From IMG/VR virus record IMGVR_UViG_3300035698_011830, positions 1-51,339 of that record: a DNA stretch of 51,339 nt. One strand, 5' to 3'. The notes under the pieces were generated by a model that worked only from the letters and a program-made list of their open reading frames with translations, was not told the DNA's origin and searched no databases. The translations under genes and the position numbers were made by a program. This document shows positions 16,174 to 46,582 of this stretch, one piece after another; the first letter of the stretch is position 1; each line of letters begins with the position of its first letter. Source of the stretch: a virus.

Positions 16174-16554
16174 ATGACGACGATCCAGAAAGTGAAACTC
16201 GACTTCGAAGGTGGAATGATCTCGCTCAAGAGGAGCGTCGATTCCGTCTCGATCGCAATCCGAGAAGTCCTGAGTCCAAGGACGACAGCGTATGAGTCTC
16301 TGGACCCGGCGGAAGCACGCGCGGCGATCGAGGCGGTCAACGCATGGGCGCGCGGGACGGTCGCGAATCATTGGACATTCACCTTCGGGGACTCGGAGGG
16401 ATTCGGTTTCTTTCGCGGGTCACGGGAAGAGCCGTCGGAAGGTTTCGTTCTCTTCTATGACGGCGTTGCAGACGAGACGATCGAAACGACTCCAGATGAT
16501 CGAGCACTCATCGTCGCGGCATTCGAGGCGGTCTTTGATTCAGTTGAAGGATGA
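16174..16554 (+). CDS. Hypothetical protein (126 aa)
   Basis: ATG 16174 follows GAGAGGGAGCCAGA. The acidic product includes KVKLDFEGGMISLKRSVDSV and GTVANHWTFTFGDSEGFGFF. No family recognised. The stop overlaps the terL start (ATGA at 16551). Confidence 0.55.
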   Translation: MTTIQKVKLDFEGGMISLKRSVDSVSIAIREVLSPRTTAYESLDPAEARAAIEAVNAWARGTVANHWTFTFGDSEGFGFFRGSREEPSEGFVLFYDGVADETIETTPDDRALIVAAFEAVFDSVEG

Positions 16555-17981
16555 GTCTAACGGAGACCGAAAGGAGTAGGGGACTCCGTCCGCAACCCGG
16601 ACCGCAAGAGGCTTTCCTATCCTGTACCGCGGACATCTGTATATATGGCGGGCAAGCGGGCGGAGGAAAGACGTTCGCTCTCCATATGGAAGGTGGACGG
16701 AACGTTCACGTCCCAGACTATAGCGCGGTCATCTTCCGGCGGACGTTTCCGCAGATCCGTTCCGAAGGCGGTCTTTGGGATTCCTCATTCCAAGTCTTTC
16801 CCCATCTGAACGGTGACCCAATCGAGGGGGAGGTTGAGTGGCGTTTCCCCTCTGGCGCAACGGTTCGCTTTGCGCATATGCAGCATGAAAAAGACCGCTA
16901 CGCTTGGGACTCCTCCCAAATCCCAATGATCGGGTTCGACCAGCTTGAGAGCTTCGCCTCTCGTCAGTTCTGGTACATGCTCTCCCGGAACCGGTCGACG
17001 TGCGGCGTCCGTCCGTACATCCGCGCGAGTTGCAACCCTTCCCCTCCCAACCATTGGCTCCGGAAGCTCCTCGATTGGTGGATCGGGGAACAAGGGTTTC
17101 CCATCCCGGAACGTTCCGGAGTCCTCCGCTATTTCTTCCGTGACTCGAAGGACAAACTCCATTGGTCGGAGGACCGAGCGGAGTTGGTCGAGTCGTTTTT
17201 TCATGAAGATTTCGGAGTCACGCGGGAGGAGTTCGGTCGGGACAACATCCTCTCTTTCACCTTCATAGGTGCATCGATCTTCGACAACAAGATCCTCCTT
17301 GAGAAGGACCCTCTCTATCTCGCCAAACTCCGGGCGCTCCCGAAGATCGACAGGGAGAGGCTCCTTGGAGGGAACTGGAACGTTACGGAGGAAGGCGGGG
17401 AATACTTCGATCGGTCTTGGTTCAAGATCGAGCCAGTTCACAAGATGCTCAAGCGGCAAATTCGCTATTGGGACCGAGCATCGACCGAGCGGAAGCGGAA
17501 GGAGTGGCGGCGAGCGGGGGAGAAGAAAAAGGGACCGAGCGCAACCGCGGGCGTCCGGATGGGGATCGACTCATTCGGGGATATCTGGATTACGGACGTT
17601 CGGCGGTTCTTCAAGGGTCACGCGGAGGTTGGGACGTCGATCGTCAATACGGCGAGTCAAGACGGTCTCCAAGTGGAGATCGGTCTCGAACAAGACCCGG
17701 CGCAAGCCGGAGTTGTTGAGGTCCAAAAGCACGTCCAGAACCTCATGGGATACATCGTCCACGTCAACCGGGTCCGGGAGTCAAAGGGGACGCGTGCTAA
17801 GATGCTCTCGAGCTACGCGGAGAAGGGGCGGGTCCATCTTGTTGAAGGGGACTGGAATGAGGACTTCCTCTCCGAGATGCACCAATTCGACGGGACGGAT
17901 GACACGGCGTCGGATCAAGTGGACGGAGCCTCGGGAGCGTTCTACCTTCTGACCGGGATTTCGATGGCGCGGGGATTCTAA
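16551..17981 (+). CDS. terL: Terminase large subunit
   Basis: ATG 16551 overlaps the previous stop. The N-terminal ATPase carries Walker A GGQAGGGKT (residues 33-41), followed by the IFRRTFPQIRSEGG segment and Walker B MIGFDQLE (126-133). The C-terminal RNase-H-like nuclease shows RYWDRAST (first Asp), the GIDSFGDIWITDVRRF strand and DDTASDQVDG (third acidic site). The enzyme pumps phage DNA into proheads and cuts concatemers. Length (476 aa) is normal for the Terminase_6 type. Confidence 0.95.
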   Translation: MSLTETERSRGLRPQPGPQEAFLSCTADICIYGGQAGGGKTFALHMEGGRNVHVPDYSAVIFRRTFPQIRSEGGLWDSSFQVFPHLNGDPIEGEVEWRFPSGATVRFAHMQHEKDRYAWDSSQIPMIGFDQLESFASRQFWYMLSRNRSTCGVRPYIRASCNPSPPNHWLRKLLDWWIGEQGFPIPERSGVLRYFFRDSKDKLHWSEDRAELVESFFHEDFGVTREEFGRDNILSFTFIGASIFDNKILLEKDPLYLAKLRALPKIDRERLLGGNWNVTEEGGEYFDRSWFKIEPVHKMLKRQIRYWDRASTERKRKEWRRAGEKKKGPSATAGVRMGIDSFGDIWITDVRRFFKGHAEVGTSIVNTASQDGLQVEIGLEQDPAQAGVVEVQKHVQNLMGYIVHVNRVRESKGTRAKMLSSYAEKGRVHLVEGDWNEDFLSEMHQFDGTDDTASDQVDGASGAFYLLTGISMARGF

Positions 17982-27072: not shown

Positions 27073-28086
27073 ATGGCGATTCCCATGAAACTGGATGACA
27101 GCCCGATGGGGTTGGAGACCATCCAGAACGGAAAGATCATTCAGGGAGGTTCGGTCGCGCAGCGTCTCGCTAGGGGCGGATTCGCGGTCAACTCTCTCCG
27201 GACGAATGCCACTCTCCGCAAGGACGAGTGGAAGCGGATGGACGAGCGGGTTAAGGCGGTTGCGCGGAAGCGACTCCGCGCGGTCGGTAATCTCGTCCAG
27301 CGCGGTCTCACTGTCCAGTTGGACAACCCGCTTGCGACGACCGTCTACGAACACGAATCGGTCTCGGACCTCTCCGGAGCCGAAGTCGACATGAACGCGG
27401 CGGCGCGGGGCAACCGTGACCGGCTCCTCTATGACATCTCTTATCTCCCTATTCCGATCATCCACAAGGGTTTCCAGTTGGATATCAGGGTTCTGGAAGC
27501 GGGGCGTCGTCGGGGAGAGGCGGTCTCGGTCACTACCGCGGGCGTTGCTACCACGGTTGTCGCGGAGAAGGCGGAGCAAATCCTTCTCAACGGGATTACG
27601 TTTAGCTACGGCGGCGGCTCGATCTACGGATACACTACTTTCCCGAGTCGGAACACGGTTACCAAGAACGCGGCTTGGGACGCGTCCGCGGCTACCGGTG
27701 CGACGATTCTGGACGACGTCATCCGGATGATCCAGGAACAGCATGATGCGGAGCACTACGGTCCGGGCGTTCTCTACGTTCCGACTCAGTGGGGCGTTGC
27801 TCTCTCCGAGGACTACAAGGCGGAATCGGACAAAACGATCCGTCAGCGGATCCTCGAAGTCGAGGGAATCGAAGACGTTGTTGTTGCGGACCATCTCACG
27901 GCGGACAATGCGGTCCTTGTCGAGATGGACAACATGAACGTCGAGATGGTCATGGGGTTCGAACCGCGCGTCGTCGAGTGGGACGTCGAGGGTGGGATGC
28001 TCACGAACTACAAGGTTATGTCCATCATGGTTCCGCTCCTCCGGGCTGACCAGAACGGGAACTCCGGGATCACGCATCTCAGCTAG
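27073..28086 (+). CDS. Major capsid protein (HK97 fold)
   Basis: ATG 27073 follows CAGGGAGGAAGATTCCAAA. The 337-residue protein has DEWKRMDERVKAVARKRLRA, the P-domain-like LLYDISYLPIPIIHKGFQLD and VLEAGRRRGEAVSVTTAGVA, plus an A-domain-like end with VLVEMDNMNVEMVMGFEPRV. This is the encapsulin-like type of HK97-fold capsid proteins. It is followed by a strong terminator, as expected for a highly expressed gene. Confidence 0.85.
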   Translation: MAIPMKLDDSPMGLETIQNGKIIQGGSVAQRLARGGFAVNSLRTNATLRKDEWKRMDERVKAVARKRLRAVGNLVQRGLTVQLDNPLATTVYEHESVSDLSGAEVDMNAAARGNRDRLLYDISYLPIPIIHKGFQLDIRVLEAGRRRGEAVSVTTAGVATTVVAEKAEQILLNGITFSYGGGSIYGYTTFPSRNTVTKNAAWDASAATGATILDDVIRMIQEQHDAEHYGPGVLYVPTQWGVALSEDYKAESDKTIRQRILEVEGIEDVVVADHLTADNAVLVEMDNMNVEMVMGFEPRVVEWDVEGGMLTNYKVMSIMVPLLRADQNGNSGITHLS

Positions 28087-28124
28087 GACGAACGGTCCGA
28101 CATGAAGCGAGGTTGATACGATAG

Positions 28125-28166
28125 AAACGCGGTTCGTCTTTGTGGCGGATCGCGTTTTCTTTTCTT
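28125..28166 (+). terminator. Rho-independent terminator after the major capsid gene
   Basis: AAACGCGGTTCG (28125-28136) pairs with CGGATCGCGTTT (28146-28157) over 12 pairs, two of them G-U, with a 9-base loop. It is followed by TTCTTTTCTT. The position 38 bases after the capsid stop is ideal. Confidence 0.8.
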
Positions 28167-28189
28167 CGGAAACAACGAGGAGGCATTCG

Positions 28190-28702
28190 ATGAGATTCAG
28201 GATGAAAGCGAAGATGGGGCGACACCATATGAAGGCGTTTCCCGGGTTCAAGATGAACGGGAAACTAGTTGAGAGCGGGAAGGTCCGGGTCGTCTCCGGG
28301 GATGTCATCGAGGTCTCGGGTCCGCTCGAACTCGGTGGCGCAATCGACAAGTTCGAGAGTCTCGACGGAGAACCGGTTCTCGCGTTCGGGAACGGACCTC
28401 TGAGGATCCGTTCCGCGGGTCTCGGACTCTTCGACGTCTTCACGCCGGACGGTCGGAAGATCAATGATGAACCCGTTCCGGCGGAGGACGCATTCTCTAC
28501 CGGGGGCGTTCAGGATGAGGACGACGAGACCGAGACCAATGATACCTATCAGGGTACGGAGGTCATCCCGGATCTCTCGAAGTCGGCTCCGGACGAGAAC
28601 TCCGAGGTTGCTCCCAAGAAGTCGGACGCAACGAAGGTTGCGACTCCGAAGGACGCCAAGAAGTCGGAGCATGTCGTCAAGTCGCGGCTCTCCCTCGATT
28701 GA
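28190..28702 (+). CDS. Hypothetical protein with acidic/Lys-rich tail
   Basis: ATG 28190 is preceded by GAGGAGGCATTCG; an in-frame GTG at 28142 lies within the terminator and is rejected. The first 90 residues are a compact basic and beta part (MGRHHMKAFPGFKMNGKLVE and GDVIEVSGPLELGGAIDKFE). The rest is a disordered acidic then Lys-rich tail. It is the first gene after the terminator, so it needs readthrough or its own promoter. No family recognised. Confidence 0.55.
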   Translation: MRFRMKAKMGRHHMKAFPGFKMNGKLVESGKVRVVSGDVIEVSGPLELGGAIDKFESLDGEPVLAFGNGPLRIRSAGLGLFDVFTPDGRKINDEPVPAEDAFSTGGVQDEDDETETNDTYQGTEVIPDLSKSAPDENSEVAPKKSDATKVATPKDAKKSEHVVKSRLSLD

Positions 28703-28711
28703 GGGAGATCG

Positions 28712-28852
28712 ATGAGAAGAGAGCCGGTTACCGGCGGGACCGGAGGCTATCGGGCGGGATCGATTCCCGCCCGAAGCCGGGTCCCGGACGTCATCCAGGG
28801 AGAGCGGGGAGCAAGGGGACTCCCGCTCCCGGACGGAGGGTCGAAGCCGTGA
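28712..28852 (+). CDS. Small ORF coupled to the modification cassette (46 aa)
   Basis: ATG 28712 follows GAGGGAGATCG. The frame reads MRREPVTGGTGGYRAGSIPA and ends in a TGA that overlaps the GTG at 28849. It is Gly/Arg/Pro-rich. The coupling suggests that it is translated; function is unknown. Confidence 0.4.
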   Translation: MRREPVTGGTGGYRAGSIPARSRVPDVIQGERGARGLPLPDGGSKP

Positions 28853-29538
28853 CGGGCAGAATGACGGGCGGAGTCTCGGTCGGGAACAAACACCGGACCG
28901 CGGTCCCGCGGCTCTGGCCGGGCGCTACGGTCTACATCCTTGGCGGAGGTCCATCCCTCAAGCCTTGGTGGATCGATCGTCTGGGGTCGAGTATGGACTC
29001 CCTGAGACATACGATCGCTTGCAACCAAGCCTATGAGTTCGCTCCTTGGGCTCCGGTTCTCCTCTACAACGACCCGGAATGGCTTAAAGTCCAAAGGGAC
29101 AAGATCAACGACTTTCCGGGGATTATCTTCACGACTTGTGCCAGTCACGAGAAGTTCAAGGGGATAACTCATATCTCGAAGGACAACCGCGGCGGCATCT
29201 CCAAGGATCCTCGGAAAGTACATTGGAACAAGTCGACTGGAGCGGTCGCGGTCAATTTGGCGGTGCATCTGGGAGCGAAGCGGATCATTCTCTTCGGGTA
29301 CGATATGAGACGGATCGAGGTTGACGGAGTGGATCTGGCAAACTTTCATGACGCCTACTTCTGGGAGAAAGAACCCAAAGCGGCGTATAAGGACCCGTAT
29401 CACTACATGCTTCCTCCGTTCCGCGAAATCGCTTCCGCGGTCAAGGCGCTCGGGATAGAGTTACTGAACGCGTCTCCGGGTTCTGCGATTCCTCACGAGT
29501 GGATTCCGCACGTTGACCCGGAGGACGTCATACCCTAA
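28849..29538 (+). CDS. MptE-like / DUF115-type Rossmann protein
   Basis: GTG 28849 overlaps the previous stop and has GGACGGAGGG nine bases upstream; ATG 28861 is an alternative. WPGATVYILGGGPSLKPW (residues 23-40) is the nucleotide-binding start of the 6-hydroxymethylpterin pyrophosphokinase MptE-like group. It is followed by HTIACNQAYEF, VLLYNDPEWLK and AVNLAVHLGAKRIILFGYDM. Members occur in phage and surface-glycan clusters, including motility-accessory-factor proteins. It opens a run of six enzyme genes. Substrate is unknown. Confidence 0.7.
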   Translation: MTGRMTGGVSVGNKHRTAVPRLWPGATVYILGGGPSLKPWWIDRLGSSMDSLRHTIACNQAYEFAPWAPVLLYNDPEWLKVQRDKINDFPGIIFTTCASHEKFKGITHISKDNRGGISKDPRKVHWNKSTGAVAVNLAVHLGAKRIILFGYDMRRIEVDGVDLANFHDAYFWEKEPKAAYKDPYHYMLPPFREIASAVKALGIELLNASPGSAIPHEWIPHVDPEDVIP

Positions 29539-29554
29539 CCAAGGGGAGGAACCA

Positions 29555-30286
29555 TTGACGGTTCAGATCGTTTCCGTTCTCCGATCCGGCGGAGACTTCA
29601 ATCCAGGTCATTTCTTCGACCTCCGGTCCTCGATCAAGCGGACGAATCCAACGGCGTTGGACCCGATCTTGCTAACGGATTGCGCCATCCCGGGGAATGC
29701 GTTGGTCCACGACTGGCCGGGTTGGTGGTCCAAGTTCGAGGTCTTCGCTCTCCCGGGGAACGTCCTCTTCCTCGATCTGGACACGGTCGTTTGCGGAGAC
29801 CTCTCGCCTCTCCTGAACTTCATTGAGTTCGAACTCCCTCCGCGGGTCCTCCTCATGTTGGAAGACTTCTATCGTCCCGGGCGCGCGGCGTCGGGAATCA
29901 TGGGATGGAACTCCGGCGCTCTCGGTTTCCCGTTCTATGAGAAGTTCCTCGGGATGGACATCAACGGCGGTCGATTCTCTCTCCCGATGGGAGGGAAAGA
30001 ACAGTTCACTCCCGGACGAACGTCGAAGGTCTTCCGAGGAGATCAGAACCTAATTCCGGAGATTGCGCGGTCGGTCGGTTGGGAGATCTATCAGGCGAGA
30101 CCCGGTGACAAGTTCGGGATCTATTCCTACAAAAAGCACGTCCTCAGTCAATCAAAGCACGCGATTGGACCTCCTCCCGGAGCGGCGGTCGTTTGCTTTC
30201 ACGGACAACCCAGACCTTGGGACGTCGATCCCCTCCCGGATTGGATCCGGGAAGCGTGGGGACGTCTCCCGCTTGGGGAGGTTTGA
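29555..30286 (+). CDS. Glycosyltransferase, GT8-like (GT-A fold)
   Basis: TTG 29555 follows GGGGAGGAACCA. VQIVSVLRSGGDFNPGHFFD starts a GT-A fold, and GNVLFLDLDTVVCGDLSPLL holds the DxD metal site (D74, D76). Later GWNSGALGFPFYEKFLG and VVCFHGQPRPWD match the acceptor-side and metal-binding His regions of such enzymes. It would transfer a sugar from a nucleotide sugar; the target may be a virion protein or a cell glycan. Confidence 0.75.
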   Translation: MTVQIVSVLRSGGDFNPGHFFDLRSSIKRTNPTALDPILLTDCAIPGNALVHDWPGWWSKFEVFALPGNVLFLDLDTVVCGDLSPLLNFIEFELPPRVLLMLEDFYRPGRAASGIMGWNSGALGFPFYEKFLGMDINGGRFSLPMGGKEQFTPGRTSKVFRGDQNLIPEIARSVGWEIYQARPGDKFGIYSYKKHVLSQSKHAIGPPPGAAVVCFHGQPRPWDVDPLPDWIREAWGRLPLGEV

Positions 30287-30294
30287 GATGGGCT

Positions 30295-30366
30295 ATGCGG
30301 GCGCGGATTGGGATCGAGGAACAGATTGAGTGGATCCGGGGAAAATACGGGGAGCCGTTACCATGA
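30295..30366 (+). CDS. Very short ORF (23 aa)
   Basis: ATG 30295 encodes MRARIGIEEQIEWIRGKYGE plus three residues, and its TGA overlaps the ATG of the radical SAM gene (30363). Another ATG at 30288 gives 13 residues in a different frame and has the better-placed GGGGAGG. The coupling is the support for a translated leader peptide. Confidence 0.35.
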   Translation: MRARIGIEEQIEWIRGKYGEPLP

Positions 30367-31241
30367 AGGCACCAACGGACAAGCGGAATGACACTATCCA
30401 GATCATCGTCACGCGGGCTTGTTCTCTCTTCACTTGTTCAAATTGTACGCAACTCCTCCCGTTCAGGAAGGACGCTCTCCATATGGGCGTTGACGTCTTC
30501 CGGGCGGCGGTTCGGTCCGTCAAGGACTGGCCGGGAGTCGTGGCGATGTTCGGCGGGAATCCATGCAACCATCCGAAGTTTCCGGAGCTTTGCGCGATCC
30601 TCGAAGAGGAGATCCCTCAACAGAAGAGGCGCGGACTCTGGTCCAACGATCTCCGGGGACACGGGGAGACGGTCCGTCGGGTCTTCTATCCATCCGGTCG
30701 GTTCAATCTCAACGCTCACGCGGAAGCGGGCGCGGCGGATGAGATCGAGAGACACCTTCCGGGGAAGCTCCTCCGGGAGAGCCGTTCGAAGCTCTCCCAA
30801 CATTCTCCAATCCTCGTCCATTGGAAAGATTTGGGGATGACCGAGGAAGATTGGATAGCGGTCCGTGAGGATTGCGACATCAACAAGAATTGGTCCGCGG
30901 CGATCGTCGAGAGGGACGGGGAACCGTTCGCTTATTTCTGCGAAGTGGGCGCGGCAATCGATGGAATCCGCGGAGAGAACAACGGGATCCCGGCGGTCCC
31001 GGGTTGGTGGCGGCTCAAGATGTCGTCTTTCGAGCATCAAGTCCGAAACTGTTGCGATGCGGGTTGCGGAGTTCCTCTCCGTCTCCGTGGTCATCTGGAC
31101 AGGGAAGACACTTATGACGTCTCGGAGAGTTGGGGCGCGGTCGCGGTTCCGAAGTCGGAGAAGTCCGTCAAGGTGGTTCTCCCGGTGGAAGGCAAGGCGG
31201 CGGAGGCGACCGACTATCTCCGGAGGAGGACGAAGGATTGA
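30363..31241 (+). CDS. Radical SAM protein
   Basis: ATG 30363 overlaps the preceding small frame. TIQIIVTRACSLFTCSNCTQ (residues 11-30) carries C20, C25 and C28, a CX4CX2C variant of the radical SAM cluster motif. AMFGGNPCNHPKF (61-73) matches the GGEP-type SAM-binding motif and its usual follow-up HP. GLWSNDLRGHG (91-101) and FNLNAHAE (114-121) look like later barrel strands. C193 and the group C230, C231, C235 near the end could hold an auxiliary cluster. The enzyme would use S-adenosylmethionine to start radical chemistry; with glycosyltransferases around it a sugar or peptide modification is a reasonable inference. Confidence 0.75.
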   Translation: MKAPTDKRNDTIQIIVTRACSLFTCSNCTQLLPFRKDALHMGVDVFRAAVRSVKDWPGVVAMFGGNPCNHPKFPELCAILEEEIPQQKRRGLWSNDLRGHGETVRRVFYPSGRFNLNAHAEAGAADEIERHLPGKLLRESRSKLSQHSPILVHWKDLGMTEEDWIAVREDCDINKNWSAAIVERDGEPFAYFCEVGAAIDGIRGENNGIPAVPGWWRLKMSSFEHQVRNCCDAGCGVPLRLRGHLDREDTYDVSESWGAVAVPKSEKSVKVVLPVEGKAAEATDYLRRRTKD

Positions 31242-31957
31242 GAGTTCACGGTCTGACCGTATCGGTCAATTTCTCGGACCATCTTGCAAAGGGAATCGGT
31301 CGTTGGATGGACGGTCTCTCTTCATTGACGGTCGTCTCCGATCCGGAGGACATCGGGACGGAGTCGGTCGTCGAGAACTGTCCCGGACAAACGACACTCC
31401 TCAAGACCCGGGTCTTCTATGCGGATGGCGCGGCGTTCAACAAAGGCGCGGCGCTCGAAGAGGGACGGCGCGCTATGCCGTTCGAAGATTGGATCCTCGT
31501 CTTCGATTCCGACATCGTCCCTCCCGTCGGTTGGAAGGAGAAGGTCGAGGAGAACGACATCGAGCCGGGTTGGTTGTATGGCGCGATCCGGAAGCAATGG
31601 CATGAGAAGAACCGGCTTTCGATCGATGACCCAAAGCTCCCGATTGTTCGCGGGGACGGCGTCGGAGTTGGGTTCTTTCAGCTCTTCCACTCCGGCGACC
31701 CGGCGGTTCAGACCTCGCTCGGTCAGACTCTTTTCGAGACGTGTTGGAGTCACGCGGGAAACTACGATAACGATTTGATGAACCGTTGGCGGAACCGCGG
31801 GCGGCGTCCTCGTCTTCTCGATGGATTCACAGTCACTCATGTCGGACGCGGGAAGGATTGGTTGGGGCGCGGGAAGACTGCCAAGTTCGAAGAGATGATG
31901 GGAGAGCGAAAGAGAAGAGGCGGGAAATGGGATCACGAGAGGATTCGGAGGCAATAG
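31238..31957 (+). CDS. Glycosyltransferase, GT2-like (TTG start)
   Basis: TTG 31238 overlaps the preceding stop (TTGA) behind CGGAGGAGGACGAA. DWILVFDSDIVPPVGWKEKV (residues 84-103) holds the DxD site (D90, D92) of a GT-A fold. Later GVGVGFFQLFHSG and CWSHAGNYDNDLMNRWRNRG fit this type of enzyme, where the ND/D-type loop contacts the acceptor. The C-terminus is basic. Second glycosyltransferase of the cassette. Confidence 0.65.
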   Translation: MRVHGLTVSVNFSDHLAKGIGRWMDGLSSLTVVSDPEDIGTESVVENCPGQTTLLKTRVFYADGAAFNKGAALEEGRRAMPFEDWILVFDSDIVPPVGWKEKVEENDIEPGWLYGAIRKQWHEKNRLSIDDPKLPIVRGDGVGVGFFQLFHSGDPAVQTSLGQTLFETCWSHAGNYDNDLMNRWRNRGRRPRLLDGFTVTHVGRGKDWLGRGKTAKFEEMMGERKRRGGKWDHERIRRQ

Positions 31958-32580
31958 ACCGATCGATCATCGGTTGGAAGTGGCGTCATCGGGACGGCTA
32001 CTTCGGGAAGCATCGACTCCACCAAGGTTTTCCAGTCTACGATCATCTTCCGGAGTGTCTCGTCCGGGGGATGGGATGCGTGAGCGGCGATCTCTTTCCG
32101 GTAGAGGCGGCGCTCGAACTCGGTTGCGGTTACGGCGCGTGGATGAGGGAAGTTGCTCCCTACTGCGGATTCCTCACGGGGATAGATATCGACCCGGGAG
32201 CCATCTCGGAAGGGATACCGGAGTCCAACACCGAGTTCCGGGTCTATGACGGAAAGTGGATCCCGTTCGAGGACGGAACTCTCGATCTGGTGTATTCCGT
32301 CTCGGTCTTCCAGCACCTTCCGCGCGTCCTCGTCAAGGCTCTCTGGAAGGAGTCGGTCCGGGTCCTCTGTCCGGGTGGCGTCTTCATCTTCCAGATCCGA
32401 GACGCGGCGGGGAAGTCATGGGTCAAGGACATCGGTCCGACCCGGTCGGAACAGTCCGTCGGATGGACAAAGGAGGAGATCCTTGAGGCGTGGGAAAGTC
32501 TCGATCTCCCGGAGAGACAATCGATTCAAGTCCTCCATGATCCGGAGCGGCTCTCATGGATCGGAGTCGTTGAGAACTGA
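31927..32580 (+). CDS. Class I SAM-dependent methyltransferase
   Basis: ATG 31927 overlaps the end of the glycosyltransferase gene by 31 bases. Motif I is AALELGCGYGAWM (61-73), motif II GIDIDPGAI (85-93), and DGTLDLVYSVSVFQHLPR and VLCPGGVFIFQIRDA mark motifs IV and VI of the Methyltransf_11 type. Such enzymes methylate small molecules or sugars. The gene order suggests action on the product of the glycosyltransferases. Confidence 0.85.
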   Translation: MGSREDSEAIDRSIIGWKWRHRDGYFGKHRLHQGFPVYDHLPECLVRGMGCVSGDLFPVEAALELGCGYGAWMREVAPYCGFLTGIDIDPGAISEGIPESNTEFRVYDGKWIPFEDGTLDLVYSVSVFQHLPRVLVKALWKESVRVLCPGGVFIFQIRDAAGKSWVKDIGPTRSEQSVGWTKEEILEAWESLDLPERQSIQVLHDPERLSWIGVVEN

Positions 32581-32597
32581 GAAGAGGGAGAACTCAG

Positions 32598-33275
32598 ATG
32601 AGGCGGAGAGAGATCATCCTCGTCCTCGGACCTCCGCGGTCCGCGGTCCAAAAGGTCGGCGCGGTGTGCGCGGCGAGTCCGGGCGTATCGACGGCGCGGG
32701 TCCAAGTCTGCCGGGGCGCGTTGAGGGAGCATGACGCTCTCAAGCGGAAGGTTCATTGGGCGGCGCTCCATGACGCGGGGATAGATCCTCGGACGTTCGC
32801 GAGTCCGCTTCCGGAATCCCATACCGGAACTTGGATCAACCAATGGGCGGCGCGGCTCCGGGAGGTCGTTCAACAGAAGTTCGACCGATTCCCCTTGGTC
32901 GCGGTTTGCGAGATCCCGGGTCTATGGCCGATCTGGGAAGCGGCGTTCGGTCCCGATGAGGCGTCTCCGTTCCGCGTCCGGTTCCTCCTCGTCTGGAGAG
33001 AGCCGGGGGAGGTCGCTCGGGGTCTCGATCATACGCGGTACATCTCCGAGGTCGACCCGATGGAGTGGGCGCGGAATCATTGTGACCAAGTCGAGGCGTG
33101 CCAGAGAGCGACAGGAGCGCCGATCCTCGATGCAACGGACTGGCTCCTCCGGGGTCGGACGGAGTCGCTTGAGGCGGCTCTCGGAGCCGTAGGCTTGACG
33201 TGGAACCCTTCCGGGGTCGATTCTCTGAGTAAGCGCGGCGGACACGGGAGAGAGAACGGAGGGCGGTCGAGATGA
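32598..33275 (+). CDS. Sulfotransferase-like protein
   Basis: ATG 32598 follows GAAGAGGGAGAACTCAG. REIILVLGPPRSAVQKVGAV (4-20 and on) resembles the 5'-phosphosulfate loop of PAPS-dependent sulfotransferases, where the usual form is GxPRSGTS. The change of GT to AV is unusual. FRVRFLLVWREPGEVARGLD (126-143) matches the 3'-phosphate binding strand and helix. It would add sulfate from PAPS to a sugar or other acceptor, closing the cassette. A related P-loop kinase is an alternative. Confidence 0.55.
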   Translation: MRRREIILVLGPPRSAVQKVGAVCAASPGVSTARVQVCRGALREHDALKRKVHWAALHDAGIDPRTFASPLPESHTGTWINQWAARLREVVQQKFDRFPLVAVCEIPGLWPIWEAAFGPDEASPFRVRFLLVWREPGEVARGLDHTRYISEVDPMEWARNHCDQVEACQRATGAPILDATDWLLRGRTESLEAALGAVGLTWNPSGVDSLSKRGGHGRENGGRSR

Positions 33276-33655
33276 CTTGCAGAGCGACCGAAGCGCAAAT
33301 CAAAGGCGTCATGACCGGAACGACCATGACGACTTCCCAACTGACTCCGTTCCTCGAAGCGGCGAACGCTCTCGTCAACGACATCCCCTCCGGTTGCTAC
33401 GGTGACGACCGACTCCGCCAGATCGAGATATGGCTCTCCGCTCATCTCGCAACCGTCGGAGGGACGGAGCGGGAGGCGGTCGAGGTCAAAGTTGGGGACG
33501 CAACCGAGAAGTATTCCATCGGATCTTCTACCGACCCAAGAGGTCTTGGCTCAACGCGTTACGGCCAACAGGTAAAGCTATTTGACAGCAAAGGGATGCT
33601 CTCGAAGACAACCCAATTCTCCGCGGAGTGGCTCGGGACCACGGACGTAACATGA
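33272..33655 (+). CDS. Head-tail connector protein
   Basis: ATG 33272 overlaps the sulfotransferase stop. TEAQIKGVMTGTTMTTSQLT, PFLEAANALVNDIPSGCYGD and RQIEIWLSAHLATV are a helical pattern typical of gp6-like adaptor proteins; the end GSTRYGQQVKLFDSKG is also typical. It would form the ring below the portal. Confidence 0.7.
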   Translation: MTCRATEAQIKGVMTGTTMTTSQLTPFLEAANALVNDIPSGCYGDDRLRQIEIWLSAHLATVGGTEREAVEVKVGDATEKYSIGSSTDPRGLGSTRYGQQVKLFDSKGMLSKTTQFSAEWLGTTDVT

Positions 33656-34005
33656 GCGCGTTCTGGGTGAAATTCCTCAAGAATGACGCGGTCTATTGGG
33701 CGTCTCCGGTTCCGAACGGTCTTGGAGGTCACACTTTCGCGGCTCCGGTTGAGATCAAGGTTCGATGGGAAGACAAGTCGGTGAACTTCACGGACGAGAA
33801 CGGGGACGAGAAGCGTTCCGAGTCGGTCATCTATTCCAACCGGAATTTCGTCGTCGGAGGCTATCTCTATCAAGGGACTCTTGCGGACCTCTCGTCCGCG
33901 GAAGAGGCGGACCCTCAAACGGTCGCGGGCGCGCGTCCAGTCCAAGCGGTTGAGAAGACTCCAAGCCTACGGGCAAACGAGTATATCCGGAAGGTCATGC
34001 TATAA
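33652..34005 (+). CDS. Putative head-tail joining protein
   Basis: ATG 33652 overlaps the previous stop (ATGA). The 117-residue product includes DAVYWASPVPNGLGGHTFAA and VEIKVRWEDKSVNF, a beta-rich pattern of phage head-closure or stopper proteins. The assignment leans on gene order. Confidence 0.55.
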   Translation: MSAFWVKFLKNDAVYWASPVPNGLGGHTFAAPVEIKVRWEDKSVNFTDENGDEKRSESVIYSNRNFVVGGYLYQGTLADLSSAEEADPQTVAGARPVQAVEKTPSLRANEYIRKVML

Positions 34006-34409
34006 TGGCAGTTACGTGGACGGTCGACGGGATCGCGTTGGTCAATACCAATATCGAGAAGAGTCTCCGCGGCATGGTCAACCGGTCTCGTCCCGCTATG
34101 CGTCTCGCCGGTCTCGCGATGGAGGCGGAAGCCGGGAAGCTCACTCCGGTCGATACGGGGAACCTCCGCGGGTCCCGATATTCCAGGGTCGTGAAATCGG
34201 GCGGATCGATCAGGGCTCCGAATGGACGATTTCTCGGAGCGCCCTATGGCGTCGAGGTCGGATACGGGGCGAACTACGCGGTCAAGGTCCACGAGACGAA
34301 CGCGAACTATCGGGTTGGACAGTGGAAGTTCCTCGAAATGGGTGTCAGAGCCGCAACGCCTCAAGTGATCCAGATCCTTGGTGCTGAAATGCAAGTGAGG
34401 CGCGCGTGA
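34005..34409 (+). CDS. HK97 gp10-like tail completion protein
   Basis: The ATG at 34005 shares its A with the preceding TAA stop. AMRLAGLAMEAEAGKLTPVD, TGNLRGSRYSRV and YGVEVGYGANYAVKVHETN match the HK97 gp10 group (TP.dTG.Lr.S and VGY...YA..vhe). Confidence 0.75.
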   Translation: MAVTWTVDGIALVNTNIEKSLRGMVNRSRPAMRLAGLAMEAEAGKLTPVDTGNLRGSRYSRVVKSGGSIRAPNGRFLGAPYGVEVGYGANYAVKVHETNANYRVGQWKFLEMGVRAATPQVIQILGAEMQVRRA

Positions 34410-34819
34410 CGATCAATTCCGCGGCTTACGATCTGGCTCAGATCGTCGACGGGGACTCCTCCTTCTCGCTCTCGATCGGGACCAACCTCTTCGTTGGTGT
34501 CATGCCAAAAGAGCCGGAAGGTCTGTTGGTCCTCTTCCAGGATGCTCCCTCGGAGCCTCCGGAGGCGCTCCTCGACTCCTCGACGAACTATGAGCGGCCA
34601 GCGGTCCAAATGATGGTCCGGAGCGCGGTCGGCGGGTATGTCGCGGCTCAGGTTCTCGCGGGAGACCTCAAGAGGTCGCTCCACAATCTGTCCGATGTTA
34701 CAATTTCGACAACGCGATATATCGGGATTTGGGCGACGAGCGAACCGTTTCCGATCGGACAGGACGAAAGGGAACGGACTCTTTTCGTCGTCAACTTCCG
34801 GATTCATCGGACGAGTTGA
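34406..34819 (+). CDS. Putative tail terminator / minor capsid protein
   Basis: GTG 34406 overlaps the previous stop (GTGA). The 137-residue protein has LLVLFQDAPSEPPEALLDSS and YERPAVQMMVRSAVGGYVAA and ends in RERTLFVVNFRIHR, like small phage proteins of the minor-capsid/tail-terminator group. The order gp10-like, terminator, tube is standard. Confidence 0.6.
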   Translation: MTINSAAYDLAQIVDGDSSFSLSIGTNLFVGVMPKEPEGLLVLFQDAPSEPPEALLDSSTNYERPAVQMMVRSAVGGYVAAQVLAGDLKRSLHNLSDVTISTTRYIGIWATSEPFPIGQDERERTLFVVNFRIHRTS

Positions 34820-34882
34820 CAGAGATCCCGCGGAAAGGATCCCGCGGGGCGATGGGGACAACGAACAAGGAGGTTCGTTCCA

Positions 34883-35305
34883 ATGGCATCGAACGCTTTT
34901 GCGGGCGTAGGAACTCAATTCAAGCGGGAGAGTTCGACCTCTTCCGGCGTCTTCGTCGCTCTCGCGGAGATCATGACGATTGACGGCGTCTCGATGTCCC
35001 GGGATGACATCGACGTAACCAACCTCGATTCGACCGGCGGCTATCGGGAGTACATCCCGGGTTTCCGTGACGGCGGAACGGTCGATCTCGATATGAACTT
35101 TACTTTCGACGCGTATCAGACCGTCCTTGCGGACTTCGAATCGTCGACGGTCCAGACGTATCAGATTGCTTTGTCGGATGCGTCGGGGACAACCCTCACC
35201 TTCGACGGGTATTTCAACGCTCTCTCCGCCAGCGTTGCGGCGGATACTCAAGTTATGGCGAAGGCAACCGTCAAGGTTACCGGCGCGGTCACTCTCGCCA
35301 GCTAA
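34883..35305 (+). CDS. Major tail tube protein
   Basis: ATG 34883 follows ACAAGGAGGTTCGTTCCA. GVSMSRDDIDVTNLDSTGGY, REYIPGFRDGGTVDLDMNF and TLTFDGYFNALSASVAAD show the beta-sandwich pattern of the lambda gpV-like tail tube family. A strong ribosome binding site fits an abundant structural protein. Confidence 0.8.
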   Translation: MASNAFAGVGTQFKRESSTSSGVFVALAEIMTIDGVSMSRDDIDVTNLDSTGGYREYIPGFRDGGTVDLDMNFTFDAYQTVLADFESSTVQTYQIALSDASGTTLTFDGYFNALSASVAADTQVMAKATVKVTGAVTLAS

Positions 35306-45622: not shown

Positions 45623-46582
45623 ATGAGATCACTTGTCTTTGCGGCGGGAGGGATGAAGATCTTTCGGACTGCGGGTTGGGCGTCGATGGTCCTCCCTGAG
45701 ATCGAGTTCGATTCCGTTGTGGGCGTCTCCGCGGGCGCAATCTATGGGGCGAAGCTCCTCTCAGAGATGGGCGCGGGAAAGAGCCAGGGGGACGCAACGC
45801 GGGAGGTCGAGACCTTCCTTCTCGATCGTCTCGTCGAGTTCGAGGACATCGGTTCCAAGCGGTCACTCCTGAAGGTTGGTTGGGACGAGATCCGGCGGAA
45901 GCCATTCCGCGGACTCTCGGACATGACTCGGATGAGTCGTCTCCTCGAAACCGAGATCTCCCATGCGGATATTATCCAATCCGGAAAAGGAATCTGGGTT
46001 GGATATGTCGATGTCGAGACGCGTTCGTTCGTCTCGATCAAGGCGGAGAACCTAATCTATCCTTTCTGGGAGCGGGTCCGGGCGAGCGCATCGATTCCGA
46101 TCCTCATGGATCCTATGAACTTCAGGGATGGGCATTCCGCGGTCGATGGTGGTTTGATCGAGTCGGCTCCTCTCGGTCCCGCGATCGACTCCGGAGCAAC
46201 GGAGATCATCGGCGTTCTTTCCCACCCCAAGAGGGATAGCTCTCCCAGACCGAAACCGGTCACTCTCCGGAATTGGGTCGAATGGACGTCTGACGTTGCG
46301 GCCTCGACAATCCTTCACGGGGATTTGAGAGAGGCGGACATGAGGACGCGTCTCGTCCGTGCGGGTCAACCGTTCAAGGCGTCCGATGTCGCGGTCGATC
46401 TCTACATAGACTATCCGGTGAGACCGGTCGAGATCGGGTTCGATTGGAACGTCGATGATGCGGCGCGCGCGGTAGCACAAGGGCGCGCGGAGGGTGCTCT
46501 CTTCTTGACCAAATGGAGAGCGTTGGAAGCAACCAAAAGAAAGGGACCGGTCGAGATCGGGTTCGATTGGGAACGTCGATGA
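45623..46582 (+). CDS. Patatin-like phospholipase, C-terminus disturbed
   Basis: ATG 45623 follows AAAAGGAGCCAGG. LVFAAGGMKIF (residues 4-14) is the Gly-rich oxyanion region, GVSAGA (34-39) carries the nucleophile Ser36, and DGGLIESAPL (175-184) carries the Asp of the dyad. The enzyme would cleave acyl ester bonds of membrane lipids. After residue 265 the gene enters a 123-base tandem duplication. The second copy has one extra G, so the frame ends at GPVEIGFDWERR instead of running to the ancestral end KRKATT. The catalytic part is intact. Confidence 0.8.
   Translation: MRSLVFAAGGMKIFRTAGWASMVLPEIEFDSVVGVSAGAIYGAKLLSEMGAGKSQGDATREVETFLLDRLVEFEDIGSKRSLLKVGWDEIRRKPFRGLSDMTRMSRLLETEISHADIIQSGKGIWVGYVDVETRSFVSIKAENLIYPFWERVRASASIPILMDPMNFRDGHSAVDGGLIESAPLGPAIDSGATEIIGVLSHPKRDSSPRPKPVTLRNWVEWTSDVAASTILHGDLREADMRTRLVRAGQPFKASDVAVDLYIDYPVRPVEIGFDWNVDDAARAVAQGRAEGALFLTKWRALEATKRKGPVEIGFDWERR

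Follow-up and report, generated by a model that had tools for sequence, protein, structure and literature searches.

A putative glycan assembly and decoration cassette with a radical-SAM enzyme in the head-tail gene block of an uncultured virus

Maf-dependent flagellin glycosylation takes place before the flagellin is exported (PMC4065374), and the cellular loci responsible combine an MptE-like transferase with NeuB and a cytidylyltransferase. Among phages, virion glycosylation has been described for the mycobacteriophages Che8, Corndog and Myrna, with glycans on the capsid and tail tube (cited in PMC12363180 and PMC12619734); the accessible parts of these sources mention no radical S-adenosylmethionine (SAM) enzyme. 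Sugar-like substrates are also oxidized by radical-SAM enzymes: BtrN acts on an aminocyclitol, with its four-Cys auxiliary cluster as the presumed electron acceptor (PMC9012708). The locus described here lies in the IMG/VR virus record IMGVR_UViG_3300035698_011830, a stretch of 51,339 nt (hereafter the window), and comprises six open reading frames (ORFs) at 28849-33275, named genes A to F. They are read here as a modular late cassette for glycan assembly and decoration, most likely for glycosylation of the virion, in which C would oxidize or epimerize a sugar; this reading is probable, though well short of certain. The six genes are as follows.

28849..29538, + strand: gene A, MptE-like / phage "alpha-2,3-sialyltransferase" family (PHROG 4603), putative glycosyltransferase; GTG start
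29555..30286, + strand: gene B, GT8-like glycosyltransferase (PHROG 1962, P1 PmgQ family); TTG start
30363..31241, + strand: gene C, predicted radical-SAM enzyme of SpeY/BtrN (twitch) fold; ATG start
31238..31957, + strand: gene D, GT-A glycosyltransferase (GT2-like); TTG start
31927..32580, + strand: gene E, class-I SAM methyltransferase; ATG start
32598..33275, + strand: gene F, orphan ORF; ATG start

Gene C is a predicted member of the radical-SAM superfamily, as judged from three conserved cysteines and the barrel fold of its model. The cysteines of the cluster-binding site (C20, C25 and C28) are invariant in 44 aligned sequences, as are four further cysteines (C171, C193, C231 and C235). 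The superfamily profile PF04055 is matched by 37 of 44 family members at E 0.01, and by the window protein at E 0.006, under the curated cut-off. The AlphaFold model (pLDDT 90.2, pTM 0.89) lies nearest to SpeY (Foldseek 7.5e-7; Z 17.2 over 249 residues, rmsd 3.5) and second nearest to BtrN (Z 12.7), with every other radical-SAM enzyme at Z ≤10.4. The modelled twitch fold, together with four cysteines for a predicted auxiliary cluster, places gene C with these two enzymes. It shares with the SpeY/BtrN dehydrogenases the overall fold, the three-Cys site and the four additional invariant cysteines, but is 12-14% identical to them and, in the clade of the window, carries the spacing CX4CX2C. In a library of viral structures the radical-SAM matches were all distant, with a best TM of 0.50.

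The family of gene C is largely viral. It was collected from viral contigs with the motif pattern FGGNPxxHPxF, which returned 83 contigs, 82 of them with homologues; a single-sequence search of the same contigs gave no match, so that the family was reached only through the pattern. The window protein is 50-65% identical to its nearest group, and in the tree it belongs to a group of 14 viral rows with full support, whose sister is the more distant L108 (contigs and loci being numbered with the letter L). In cells the gene is very rare, with only five loci in 84,980 species genomes, at least two of which look viral when read from sequence; a census of 398 genomes of one phylum added one further genome beside the seed. 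No paper on the family was found among those under open licence, though one may exist elsewhere. Separately, in a Beijerinckiaceae metagenome-assembled genome (MAG), a C-type radical-SAM domain is fused to an exostosin GT47 domain (L121:8963-10876).

The model of gene D (pLDDT 90.6) matches the chondroitin polymerase K4CP at Z 17.6 and more than 900 chains at Z ≥8. Its DxD motif (D90/D92) is invariant, and fold and motif together identify a GT-A, GT2-like glycosyltransferase. C and D form a recurrent pair. After removal of near-copies, and counting only loci with enough sequence (n = 34), 30 loci have D in the same orientation no more than 3.5 kb 3' of C, and none has it upstream. The distance matrices of the two proteins correlate at r 0.58, whereas none of 2000 permutations exceeded 0.29. 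D is also present in extended sequence of the L101 and L066 contigs. A further common companion of C and D, absent from the window cassette and without a Pfam match, is a protein with an "RHMTDEGWQ"-type motif (cluster 1: L098:2-973, L120:3870-4895 and related sequences, up to 44 loci), of which some members may be out-of-frame ORFs.

Gene A belongs to PHROG 4603 (E 4.1e-23). Its Pfam match to MptE-like is weaker (1.9e-6; 28.2 bits against a cut-off of 34.6, hence under it), and comparison of its profile with solved structures gave noise only. G34, P35, N59 and G150-Y151-D152 are invariant, and homologues occur in Caulobacter, Brevundimonas and Pseudomonas phages. In Caulobacter phage CcrBL9 an A-type gene likewise heads a six-gene set (gp527-gp522) that holds a methyltransferase and a GT9-like protein and lies beside tail genes; unlike in the window, no C or D homologue was found in that set. 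Gene B falls in PHROG 1962, the family of P1 PmgQ (E 3e-27), and its profile matches the GT8-type Skp1 galactosyltransferase AgtA (6mw5; E 2.5e-6) and glycogenin (E about 2e-4). The Pfam GT8 match taken by itself is under the cut-off; the family profile and an invariant metal-binding DxD (D74/D76) point to a GT8-like GT-A enzyme. Citrobacter phage phiNP also pairs a B homologue with an adjacent A-type gene, but there the pair precedes the terminase genes and no radical-SAM gene is annotated alongside. Gene E is a class-I methyltransferase (Methyltransf_11, 5.9e-17; 62.5 bits against a cut-off of 21.2), with a NodS model at 6e-9, under its own cut-off; a homologue in the L101 cassette is 35% identical. 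The earlier note on this DNA, made from the letters alone, had named A, B, C, D and E as MptE-like, GT8-like, radical-SAM, GT2-like and methyltransferase proteins, and hidden Markov model and structure searches bear these assignments out, more tentatively for A.

Homologues of genes A to E are found in a similar cassette context in independent viral contigs, and their grouping is therefore more than chance. In the clade of the window, such sets lie between the genes for the major capsid protein, adaptor or connector and those for head closure or tail (L113, L119, L101/L128, L066/L129, L064/L130 and L120). In L119 and L113 an adaptor gene precedes the set, and head closure, tail completion and tail tube genes follow; L128, L129 and L130 have similar orders, some of their gene names being read from sequence. 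The L120 cassette reads A, methyltransferase, B, C, methyltransferase, an unknown gene, GT2 and D, and is directly followed by homologues of the window genes at 33652 (45% identity) and 34883 (42%). Related cassettes also hold TylF- and RMNT_CmcI-like O-methyltransferases, Caps_synth, LicD and additional GT2 proteins. In the other C clade, the genes upstream encode, among others, tape-measure and head proteins, glycosyltransferases and methyltransferases. The proposal that the same gene order should be sought in other phages thus finds its answer in the C-D order and the set itself, which recur within the head-tail block of related viral contigs. That such a set is rare at this place holds for deposited phages: in 50,697 phage records gene C had no match, with the window sequence and one sequence of the other clade as queries, nor had gene D in a single-sequence search, and among cultured phages the nearest relatives by TerL show no annotation of such genes at the equivalent place. 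It does not hold for uncultured viruses.

The six ORFs are all open, tightly packed on the + strand, and show coding-like codon use and Shine-Dalgarno-like starts. Stop-start overlaps had been described throughout; they exist at C/D (4 nt), D/E (31 nt) and F/connector (ATGA), whereas A/B, B/C and E/F are separated by 16, 76 and 17 nt. Co-expression of the cassette with the structural genes is likely, because no strongly hydrophobic, membrane-spanning-like segment was found in proteins A-F, no plus-strand promoter-like site within 27900-34500, and the connector gene begins before F ends. Overall G+C and third-position G+C of genes A to E equal those of the structural genes, and since they match the phage these genes show no sign of recent transfer.

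Taken together, the presence of versions of the set at the same position in close relatives points to viruses that build an unusual sugar chain and attach it, most likely to their own particles. As we infer the target of the glycan, the order of the steps and the chemistry of C, A (MptE/Maf-like or sialyltransferase-like) and/or D and B would attach the chain and extend it; the acceptor would most likely be a structural protein of the virion, modified in the cytoplasm before the particle is assembled or while assembly is under way. C would take a hydrogen atom off a sugar carbon, turning an alcohol into a ketone as SpeY and BtrN do or, failing that, epimerizing it; E would methylate, capping a sugar hydroxyl or amine, and F would be an accessory, uncharacterised member. 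The view that the structural operon holds genes for building and decorating a glycan, a richer set than a pair of phage glycosyltransferases, agrees with the families of A to E and with the variants in relatives. Like the mycobacteriophage systems, the set encodes its own glycosyltransferases, but it differs in its predicted radical-SAM enzyme and in being a multi-enzyme set within the head-tail block, at a recurrent site.

A hint at the target comes from L124, a locus of a Chromatiaceae MAG, in which a C homologue stands beside two flagellins, FliD, a GT2 protein, a methyltransferase, NeuB and a cytidylyltransferase. The Maf-type MptE-like protein of this locus is matched by the gene A profile (1.4e-6). 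By analogy, both A and C would fit a cytoplasmic glycosylation of proteins.

Several observations weigh against a virion-glycosylation cassette built around C. The C homologue of L124 belongs to the other large clade of the family, not to that of the window. Unlike the Maf loci, the window cassette has no recognised genes for making an activated sugar; the donors have to be supplied by the host or by genes that escaped recognition. The window protein departs from the canonical CX3CX2C, which is present in 49 of 61 family rows, most members of the window clade having CX4CX2C; the canonical spacing is typical of the superfamily but not universal, and gene C was therefore filed by its fold and three cysteines. 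The closest relatives by major capsid protein, L002 and L003, have a capsid-connector distance of about 0.8 kb against 5.2 kb in the window; because they lack the set at this site, the cassette is accessory. The connector proteins of the window and L002 have no direct BLASTP match, though both match PHROG 37884. Lastly, gene F has no assigned family: it had no match in Pfam, NCBIfam, cultured phages or viral contigs.

The strongest rival is late remodelling of a host surface polymer (capsule, O-antigen or flagellar glycan), which would block superinfection or free progeny from receptors. The capsular-synthesis and LicD family neighbours in related cassettes are in keeping with it, as are two cellular C homologues in surface-glycan-type loci. 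However, the six genes include no membrane protein, flippase or lipid-linked step, and the set, which tracks the structural genes in relatives, is placed among the head-tail genes and not in a moron or lysogeny region. Late-operon placement and the lack of predicted membrane proteins favour the virion over the host polymer as target, and this rival is rather unlikely.

Alternatively, C might modify a peptide or protein side chain directly, in the manner of the maturases and epimerases of ribosomally synthesized and post-translationally modified peptides, with the transferases acting at that site. The sequence-profile matches of C are weak, but the first of them is the peptide epimerase YydG/EpeE (E 0.011). 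The fold gives another ranking, with SpeY and BtrN well above SuiB (Z 10.2) and EpeE (Z 8.8), and no precursor-like peptide gene was noted; we regard direct peptide modification as quite improbable. Glycosylation of the phage DNA through hypermodified bases is improbable to much the same degree, although DNA-modifying phage glycosyltransferases are well known (discussed in PMC12619734): with live controls, no cytosine-C5 methyltransferase (PF00145) was found in the window or 15 related contigs, records that may be fragments, and the cassette has a late structural position. A search for Tet_JBP (PF12851) was empty, but its control was also silent. That the genes share no pathway and merely ride along in a variable part of the structural operon is very improbable: the content does differ among relatives, another glycan-type set (GT8-like, DegT-type aminotransferase, MptE-like) lies elsewhere in L002, between terminase and portal (L002:1275-4957), and F is an orphan of deviating composition (G+C 65% against 59% in the structural genes), but the C-D order is conserved, the C and D distances are correlated, and A, B, C, D and methyltransferases recur together.

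A broader proposal extends virion glycosylation beyond this record, and is offered tentatively, at less than even confidence. The C-D pair may mark an unnamed, widespread viral system in which a twitch radical-SAM dehydrogenase or epimerase and a GT-A partner produce an unusual glycan (keto- or epimerized, often methylated) on proteins of the virion. Uncultured tailed phages would carry this system at the head-tail junction, as a module open to exchange. If so, radical sugar chemistry helps many uncultured viruses to finish their particles, and C-D would serve as a sequence handle for finding such systems. Phage protein glycosylation would then extend from simple transferases to dedicated multi-step pathways, linked to bacterial flagellin glycosylation; the recurrence of glycan genes within structural operons would gain a testable reason, and carbohydrate chemistry new enzymes.

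Gene F had been described as sulfotransferase-like, with sulfation as a possible decoration. This assignment was dropped, since no library or collection searched gave a significant match; the sole PHROG match is at chance level (E 0.3). Comparison with a P-loop-like family near C and D in other loci also gave no link (hhalign probability 0.2%). A family that adjoins C in other loci, often between C and D (cluster 22: L052, L069, L076, L093, L108 and L115), carries the motif V-x-G-T/S-G-R-C-G-S/T and is sulfotransferase-like by eye only.

The surroundings of the cassette in the window are listed below, single coordinates being those given for a gene without an end.

16551-17981: terminase
18002: portal-type gene, with a homologue in L002
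23936: head morphogenesis gene
26562: decoration protein
27073..28086, + strand: major capsid protein, DUF6260 / encapsulin-like HK97 fold, left flank (Pfam DUF6260 2.7e-19, Linocin_M18 3.4e-12; PHROG head protein 1.4e-18)
28124..28158, + strand: terminator-like hairpin 3' of the capsid gene, 15 pairs and a T-rich tail (consensus scan)
28229..28702, + strand: small ORF between capsid and cassette, 157 aa (GTG alternative at 28142, 186 aa)
28703..28848, + strand: 146-nt gap with two strong G+C hairpins and no T-run (RNA fold of 28700-28850: -75.6 kcal/mol, z -2.84)
33272..33655, + strand: DUF4054 / PHROG 37884 head-tail connector-like gene, right flank (PHROG 37884 2.9e-5)
33652..35305, + strand: more structural genes
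36053: tape-measure-like gene, read from sequence

The cassette had been placed between capsid and connector, starting right after the capsid terminator. All six ORFs are real and co-directional, and a hairpin does stand 3' of the capsid gene; but the small ORF and the 146-nt gap with its GC hairpins come between it and gene A. Terminator-like sites in the region are no more numerous than in shuffles. The small ORF has no family match and ends in an acidic, Ser/Thr-rich tail at its C-terminus, and the hairpin pair just 5' of the cassette might act as an attenuator or processing site. The connector gene at 33272 also matches PHROG 302 (head and packaging, 0.0026) and, under the cut-off, Pfam DUF4054 (0.0087). 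The nearest deposited-phage relatives of the terminase are Methanoculleus (archaeal) viruses and Rhizobium phages, at 42-46% identity.

Two further proteins of the window stand apart from the cassette. That at 45623-46582 looks patatin-like, with a GVSAG motif and no PHROG match. That at 10411-11448 matches PHROG 2045 (E 4e-111), carries the motif G-C-x-x-V-S-x-G-C-x-x-C-Y-A-E and presumably resembles phage Gp37/Gp68, of the DUF5131 type.

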